Below are positions 8,105 through 60,687 of a stretch of DNA of 64,000 nucleotides, one piece after another. The stretch is from positions 6,944,001-7,008,000 of the forward strand of contig NZ_CP113910.1 of the NCBI RefSeq assembly GCF_024701375.2, written 5' to 3'. The translations under genes and the position numbers were made by a program. Positions within the stretch are counted from its first letter, which is position 1; each line of letters opens with the position of its first letter. This DNA comes from Streptomyces sp. KMM 9044. Its GTDB lineage: Bacteria; Actinomycetota; Actinomycetes; Streptomycetales; Streptomycetaceae. The notes beneath the pieces are model-generated. The model was not told the DNA's origin, did no database searches, and was given only the letters and a program-made list of their open reading frames with translations.

Positions 8105-8235
8105 GACTCTGCTGCTCAATTCGAGGGATGGTCACGCACCGCATCCGAGAGGGGCCGGACCGCCTCCTCGCGAGGCCCGTTCCACGCGCCCCGTCGACAG
8201 GCCGGCGTCACTCTCCGCAATTGAGCAACAGAGTC
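8105..8235. mobile_element. MITE-like element, copy 1, with 6-bp target duplication
   Basis: A 131-bp element with terminal inverted repeats GACTCTGCTGCTCAATT (left) and GACTCTGTTGCTCAATT (right, reverse complement), 16 of 17 bases matching. It is flanked by ACGCCC at 8099-8104 and 8236-8241, a 6-bp target duplication. It has no coding capacity. The interior closely matches the element at 53329-53469, apart from about 10 inserted bases and a few substitutions. It is non-autonomous; the parent transposase is not in this window. Confidence 0.85.
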
Positions 8236-52416: not shown

Positions 52417-53182
52417 GTGAACTGCCTTCCGGCGGCACGGCCGGCGGTACATCCCTTGCGCCGCCGAGGGTCGGGGAGCGCCCGTGCTGCCACGGGCCCA
52501 GCCAATGCGCACCCGGCCCGCGGCGCATTCCGGCCGCCGCCGGGCAGGTGACGACGCCCGTCATCCGGTCGAACCCGTCCCTCGGCCCGGCCCGGTCCGT
52601 TCGTCTCGGCTCAGCGCCTCGGGCCCGTCGTCACCGTGCGCTCCGCGGAGAATCCGCCCCAGGTTCCGTCCGGCAGCCTGGCCCGGATCCGTATCCGATG
52701 GCTGACCTCCGCCTCCCGTCCCGCGTAGAAGCTGTACGTCGCCCGGTCGCGCGGTGCCTGCCCCCGTGGACGACGGAGGCGGCCGGGCGGCCGTCCAGTG
52801 GCACCTGGTACTCCGCGATCACCCCGTCCGCACGCGGCGGCACCCAGCTGAGGTCGATGTGGTAGGCACCCTCGGCCCGGTGGCCCGCGGCGCGGAAACC
52901 GGTGGGTGCCGCGGCGCGGCCGTCGTCGCTGCCCGGTGTGGTCAGGCGGAGGGGAGAACCGGCGGGAGACAGGTTGTCGGCCGCGTCCCGCGCCCGGACC
53001 GTGAAGAAGTAGCGGGTGCCCGGCCCAAGCCCCGTCACCACGGAGGCCGTCTGGCTCCCGCCGGCACTGTGGATCTTCGTTTCTCCCTGGTGCACGTCGT
53101 ACGACAGGACTCCCCGGTCGTCCGTCGAGGCGGACCAGGACAGCTGGGCCGCCCTGTTGCCGACCGCTTTGCCGCGGAGGTC

Positions 53183-53322
53183 GACTCTGCTGCTCCATTC
53201 GGCGAGCGATCACGTGCCGTGCTTTCAGGGCTCGGCCGCGCCCGGCCTGCCTGCATCTGCGACGCGCTCTGAAGGCCGTATCGGCACGGCGTCATCACGC
53301 CGGGTAATTGCGCAGCAGAGTC
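53183..53322. mobile_element. MITE-like element A (diverged family member)
   Basis: 140 bp with ends GACTCTGCTGCTCCATT and (reverse complement) GACTCTGCTGCGCAATT, 15 of 17 matching. It is flanked by GAGGTC at 53177-53182 and 53323-53328. The interior differs strongly from copies 1 and B but keeps similar sub-terminal stretches. It lies directly beside element B inside the FN3 gene. Confidence 0.82.
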
Positions 53323-53328
53323 GAGGTC

Positions 53329-53469
53329 GACTCTGCTGCTCCGTTCGAGGGATGGTCACGCACCGCATCCGAGAGGGGCCGGCCGGGGCTGGACCGCTTC
53401 CTCGCGAGACCCGTTCCATGCGTCCCGTCGACAGGCCGGCGTCACTCTCCGCAATTGGGCAGCAGAGTC
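53329..53469. mobile_element. MITE-like element B
   Basis: 141 bp with the same ends as element A and an interior closely matching the copy at 8105. GAGGTC flanks it at 53323-53328 and 53470-53475, so the array is target-A-target-B-target. It carries no gene. Confidence 0.85.
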
Positions 53470-54211
53470 GAGGTCCGAGGGACGGCTGGGCGCGGACCGG
53501 TCGGCCGGCGTCGTCGCCCGTACCTCCCGGCTGCGCGGCCCGAGCCGCCCTTCCGCGTCCCGCGCCCGAACGGTGAAGGAGTACGTGGTGGAGGGTTGAA
53601 GCCTGGTGACATCCGCCATGTGCCTGGAACCGGGCACCTTTTGACCTTTGTGGTGCCCCGGTGCGCCTCGTACCGGGGCACCCGCGCGCTCGCGGCTGCG
53701 ACGGTGTCCCACATGACATGCACACGGGTGGCGCTGCCGGCCTCGGCCGTGACCCCCGCCGGTGCTCCGGGCGGCTGCCCGCCGTCCCCGTTGCCGGCTC
53801 CGGACCCGCCCCCGCAGGAGACGAGGAGGAGAAGGACCGGAGTGAGCGCGCCGCGGAGCGGGAGGGACGAGCGGAGCGCACCGCCGCGCGGCGGGAGAGG
53901 GCGGTGCGGGGGCACGGCAACGGCAGCAGGAACGCTTCGCACGCCTCCGCCTCCCGACGACGCACGGGAATGGTCCGGACCAATGGACCGGACTCATGGT
54001 GACGTGTATGACGTGACCACATCAAGAGGGTGGTGCCGTGGATCCGGCGACACCCCCGCCGCGTACGGACACCGGCGCCGGCTCGAGCGCCCGGCCCACC
54101 GCCCGGACATGCACCGTACGGCCCTGCTGAGGTGGCCGCGCCAGGGGTCCGGCACGAGATTGGGCCGGGGCGGAGTGCCCGTCCGTGTCCCCTACGAGAG
54201 GCCCGTCAACC

Positions 54212-60519: not shown

Positions 60520-60687
60520 TTCCCGCAGAGCGGCCCCGCGGCCCGGGCAGGAACCCTCGACGGTTCCGCCCGGCGGAACGCCTGCCCCGTCGCCGCCCTG
60601 AGCGCAGACGGAACAGACGACGGGCCGGCGCTCCCCGGGCGGACGGCGGCGTCGCCTCGAACGGCGCGCAACCGAGGGAGCCCATCG

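Follow-up and report, generated by a model that had tools for sequence, protein, structure and literature searches.

Probable successive insertion of two IS1182-type miniature elements beside a retained CTTTG motif in a Streptomyces FN3 pseudogene

The window, a 64,000-nucleotide stretch of Streptomyces sp. KMM 9044 DNA (C1:6944001-7008000 of the 7.43-Mb genome), contained a fibronectin-III (FN3) lipoprotein-like gene that was interrupted by 293 bp. The two side-by-side miniature elements (MITEs A and B) and the three GAGGTC copies of a 6-bp target duplication, which an initial annotation had described from the window alone, were all recovered (Table 1). A third member of the group, MITE C, was located elsewhere in the window. 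Both A and B carried GACTCTGCTGC at the start and GCAGCAGAGTC at the end. With one mismatch allowed, this end motif had 148 matches in the genome, whereas the reversed control had 4. These counts and the recurrence of A-B tandems indicate that the window pair is not a chance resemblance. REP/BIME-type mosaic repeats were excluded by the duplications, the IS-like ends and the empty sites of the elements. A search with Rfam gave two matches, both at chance level.

Table 1. Positions of the MITEs, target copies, motif and interrupted gene in the window.
Feature	Position	Strand	Description	Basis
CTTTG anchor motif	53167..53171	+	Separated from target copy 1 by 5 bp (CCGCG)	Sequence and fixed offset genome-wide
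GAGGTC target copy 1	53177..53182	+		Sequence
MITE A	53183..53322	+	140 bp; likely later insertion	
GAGGTC target copy 2	53323..53328	+	Separates A from B	Sequence; spacer equal to local duplication in 21/24 multi-element arrays
MITE B	53329..53469	+	141 bp; likely earlier insertion	
GAGGTC target copy 3	53470..53475	+		Sequence
MITE C	8105..8235	+	131 bp; third group member; duplication ACGCCC; CAAAA 5 bp beyond the duplication on the right side	
FN3 lipoprotein-like pseudogene	52614..53942	-	Broken by A and B; two further frame changes	Pfam fn3 matches in two fragments; orthologues aligned by tblastn across three frames

The interruption of the FN3 gene, as proposed earlier, was supported by empty sites in relatives. 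At all 15 aligned FN3 loci of the same genus, the fit was better when the 293 bp were left out, and the opposite outcome, that every relative would contain the insert, was not found. In the alignment with the genome G049, the gaps of 312 nt in the query and 19 nt in the subject differed by exactly 293. The local protein junction across the insertion also stood as it had been described, but the claim of a readable coding effect did not. When compared with its orthologues, the window gene had two extra frame shifts, at about 53.6 and 52.76 kb. Therefore, excision of the 293 bp would leave the frame still closed, and the loss of the gene is not attributable to the insertion of A and B. The window FN3 gene is a pseudogene irrespective of any effect of the MITEs.

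The census of the genome retained at least 109 distinct elements, composed of 42 A, 53 B (two of them without two clear ends) and 14 C elements of 131 bp. These were arranged in at least 84 insertion arrays, which were 60 single, 23 double and one triple. Both counts are minima, since each search scored no more than 40 candidates, and an 80-bp mini-element at C1:3129677-3129756 lies outside the census. Mean identities within the families were 98.5% for A, 91.2% for B and 97.3% for C, and A and B were 61% identical to each other. An exact 6-bp duplication flanked 62 of the 84 arrays, so that the group does have further copies with such duplications, the lack of which would have spoken against the initial annotation. 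The 109 elements in 84 arrays thus showed the many copies, target duplications and empty sites that are expected of MITEs. One repeated segment (500 bp, 99.4-100% identity) differed between its copies in the element that occupied one particular position, which was C alone, C together with A, or an IS copy (L153, L009, L010, L109, L181, and L317). No match to A or B was found in plasmid or phage records, and plasmid relatives of the A-B-A array matched one flank only and thus provided no empty site.

The insertion sites shared a motif at a fixed distance. When offsets were counted outward from the element, 63 of the 84 arrays had an exact CTTTG, or CAAAG where the motif was on the other side, at offset 11, so that 5 bp separated it from the 6-bp duplication; with at most one mismatch, 78 arrays had it there. 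Every other offset from 0 to 29 gave at most one exact match. When shared flanks were merged, the motif was exact at 61 of 81 distinct sites and within one mismatch at 76, which left five sites without it at this offset. Where the duplication was exact, compliance within one mismatch was complete (60 of 60 sites). The logo of 70 sites read (C/T)TTTG with a weak preference for G just outside, and the remaining columns were near background. Both orientations of the elements occurred. The targets of A, B and C were not palindromic, with a mean best stem of 6.80 at 71 sites against 6.89 in shuffled flanks, and hairpin targets formed by inverted repeats, as in IS1272, were not found at these sites.

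It is very improbable that CTTTG merely mirrors AT-rich intergenic DNA in which two MITEs came to share a spot by chance. In favour of this reading, the motif was mostly extragenic: only 6 of 68 unoccupied CTTTG sites looked intragenic, compared with 610 of 2000 positions drawn at random from the window. However, a compositional preference would not place the motif exact to the base, at one offset out of 30, and leave the positions around it near background, and chance co-occupancy is about 2 sites, compared with 20 observed.

The 293 bp is best understood, with high confidence, as two miniature elements with IS1182-type ends that were likely inserted successively 5 bp from a retained CTTTG. 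B probably came first, and A then probably entered between the motif and the resident B. In the proposed mechanism, an IS1182-family transposase would recognise (C/T)TTTG to one side of its target and would cut 5 bp from the motif with a 6-bp stagger. The motif, the 5-bp spacer and one target copy would then survive beside the new element, and the site would be regenerated for further use. A second insertion would give the order target-new-target-old-target, with the newcomer adjoining the motif. In CRISPR arrays, the spacer acquired last is the one adjacent to the leader. Each newcomer would likewise displace older elements away from the motif, and an array would retain the order of arrival in the manner of spacers beside a CRISPR leader. 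Retention of the motif and one target copy would explain the triple GAGGTC, and regeneration of the site predicts that the spacer between elements equals the local duplication and that the younger family lies nearest the motif.

Both predictions were compared with the multi-element arrays. The spacer was equal to the local duplication in 21 of the 24 arrays, and A was nearest the motif in 20 of the 21 arrays that contained A and B. Without three arrays that had a foreign spacer, A was nearest in 17 of 18 (one-sided p 7e-5, with the arrays taken as independent). The exceptions in order were one A/B array with B nearest (L158) and both A/C arrays, in which C was nearest. These fit the stepwise scheme only if B or C moved after A, and the C family is little diverged, with the identity given above.

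The spacers also bear on the possibility that the A-B pair entered the FN3 gene as one two-element unit in the style of a composite transposon. Three arrays (L017 at C1:5871551, L144 at C1:224917, and L104 at C3:26403) had the form B-GACCTG-A, but their outer duplication was another sequence. They look like copies of L160 (C1:3551760), in which all three target copies were GACCTG; one spacer of L104 was 10 bp. These three arrays were not built stepwise at their own sites, and the B-GACCTG-A pair seems to have been transferred either as a single unit or by conversion. The B parts of the GACCTG arrays nevertheless differed by 4-10 substitutions, so no simple recent copy is represented. An inner spacer that differed from the outer duplication, as expected of a composite transposon, was confined to these 3 of 24 arrays, and a moved unit would not give the spacer equal to the local duplication that was present in the window and in the 21 arrays. 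A joint entry of the window pair is therefore improbable, and successive insertion is retained for the FN3 site.

The relative age of the families is consistent with this order. B is likely older than A, as judged from its position in the arrays, its greater divergence and, more weakly, its distribution. The initial annotation had stated that the order of insertion could be read and that the element family was not recognised; it had overlooked the IS1182 origin and the CTTTG anchor, from which follow the order B before A and an explanation for the double use of the site.

Other regularities were observed at the junctions. Of the two-element arrays in which A adjoined the motif, 19 when copies of the GACCTG pair are counted, A and B were co-oriented in 15. 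Facing ends often resembled each other more closely than did randomly drawn ends of the same type (for example L127, L141, and L157), with p 0.058 for all 21 junctions and p 0.0056 for a post-hoc subset of eight with the left end of A. In L173 (3362-3402), the left end of a B element that adjoined a broken IS resembled the IS end. The likeness of facing ends is perhaps due to correction of a quasi-palindrome.

Second insertions were more frequent than expected. For 41 A sites and 63 B/C sites among 1278 CTTTG sites per genome (a number derived from 11 window counts), chance co-occupancy was about 2.0, and an alternative estimate from a larger CTTTG sample minus occupied sites was about 1.3. 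The 20 co-occupied sites, counted without the foreign-spacer set, thus represent second insertions at occupied sites about 10 times more often than expected. Stepwise insertion would hold equally if this excess arose solely because a small number of CTTTG sites are permissive or attractive, with occupancy itself of no influence, and this is a reasonably probable account. Occupied sites are known to be usable, and different elements lay at one place of the repeated segment (L153, L109, and L317). On the other side, the coding context was alike, with 43 of 80 occupied and 35 of 68 unoccupied CTTTG sites being intergenic-like, and coding status as the cause of the excess is accordingly unsupported. 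Homotypic pairs were also missing (no A-A and one B-B), though recombination between near-identical neighbours could delete them. A stronger reading can be offered only tentatively and is rather unlikely. It holds that a clade of IS1182-type DDE transposases recognises a PAM-like TTTG at a fixed distance, always leaves it intact and has an active preference for occupied sites. The resulting polarised, newest-first stacks would then be the transposon equivalent of CRISPR arrays, in which the successive bursts of a single genome are recorded.

The source of the ends was found among full-length insertion sequences. The genome encoded several IS1182-like transposases, and full-length ISs with the same ends, which the initial annotation had named as confirming evidence, were present both in the own genome and elsewhere. 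In its 17-bp right end, A was identical to ends of these IS copies. The one copy of the own genome with exactly A/B-type ends (C1:425929-427778) had GACTCTGCTGCGCAATT at both of them. Its reading frame was broken at a short internal duplication, and the halves of its transposase scored 149 and 109 bits, below the IS1182 cut-off of 270. All five intact transposases tested with the IS1182 model, two of them from the own genome, scored 297-310 bits against the same cut-off, and the intact helper transposases also matched the DDE_Tnp_1_6 domain. Other transposases of the own genome were open, with lengths of 578, 582, 619 and 625 aa. The putative helper ISs were 1.8-1.95 kb in length and had inverted terminal repeats around one transposase gene, as is characteristic of IS1182. 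The transposase model, the DDE_Tnp_1_6 domain and the inverted ends place the putative helpers of the window elements in the IS1182 family. A and B shared only their ends with these ISs, and the MITEs would have been mobilised in trans by an IS1182-family transposase. In two near-identical transposase copies (L316 1420-3279 and L319 649-2526), a Glu-Ala repeat tract was of differing length.

The ISs largely followed the same target rule. Among eight own IS copies, counted by eye, the motif was exact in five, within one mismatch in six and missing in two, and all four with an exact duplication had the exact motif. Among 46 other actinobacterial loci, 14 of the 17 elements with both ends complied within one mismatch, 10 of them exactly, and L221, L236, and L262 did not. 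On plasmids, 7 of 10 distinct sites with resolved ends complied (misses at L374, L378, and L388); GTTTG was the motif at two of the compliant sites, one in Rhodococcus opacus and one beside a Streptomyces transposase of 53% identity. Transposase matches were located at 125025-126742 on the Streptomyces sp. NBC_01216 plasmid NZ_CP108679, and at C3:125022-126742 in the same-genus genome G025. None of the seven more distant IS1182 members with resolved ends complied (L345, L346, L348, L351, L352, L353, and L356), and hairpin-like targets were found among them for L351 (stem 12), L348 (stem 10), and, less clearly, L346 (stem 9). Therefore, the target rule belongs to a clade and not to the whole IS1182 family.

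At least 4 of 392 genomes of the genus, the own genome included, had a match at 1e-10 among the best two candidates per genome, and among 61 genomes searched at 1e-3 strong matches occurred only in the own genome. When the own genome was compared with the close relative G355 (98.8% identity across 3.1 kb of a single locus), two B insertions were common to both at matching places. At window 60546-60618, G355 had B beside CAAAG, whereas the own genome was without B and read CGACG for CAAAG. One own B had no counterpart in G355 and was located within a locally diverged stretch. No A was present among the two G355 matches listed. The synteny with G355 in the stretch compared ended near window 58570, with the FN3 site outside it.

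The target differs from those of known relatives and resembles, in part, those of unrelated systems. According to PMC5678879, IS1272, a member of the IS1182 family, replaces inverted repeats and leaves no duplications, whereas the elements described here had an unpaired TTTG at a fixed distance, a 6-bp duplication and non-palindromic targets; the hairpin target has been reported for IS1272 and is not known to hold across the family. ISPse1 is given with a 4-bp duplication in PMC3281130. ISAjo2-type elements of the IS1202 family, as described in PMC10132070, insert 5 bp from a XerC site that stays outside the duplication, and thus share the fixed 5 bp from a recognised sequence. These ISAjo2-type elements differ in the XerC site, the single orientation and the 5-bp duplication, compared with a 4-5 bp motif, both orientations and an IS1182 transposase here. 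The casposase reads a TCAAATC leader motif 8 bp from its target, as stated in PMC6614799. Casposons and CRISPR acquisition likewise retain a leader motif at a fixed distance and duplicate the target in each event. This likeness is one of working only, without common membership, as those systems use an unrelated Cas1-type enzyme and form 14-15-bp duplications.

A, B and C correspond to prokaryotic MITEs in being short and non-coding, with inverted ends, duplications, many copies and IS-shared ends, and are set apart from them by ordered stacking on a retained anchor. In the text of the MITE review PMC10969869, the terms Streptomyces, IS1182, tandem and nested were absent. Among the titles and abstracts listed, no report of a TTTG-anchored IS1182 element or of ordered MITE stacking was found. 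The anchored, re-usable and order-keeping target is thus what is new, and the element type, an IS1182-type MITE, is ordinary.

For this IS clade, the result provides a short and testable target code, TTTG-N5-6 bp, that is mostly extragenic in a GC-rich genome. The tandem arrays likely reveal the order in which their elements arrived, and could be used to place the bursts of mobile elements of a single genome in sequence. Furthermore, a re-usable landing motif of 4-5 bp that is read by a single DDE transposase would be useful for actinobacterial genetics.
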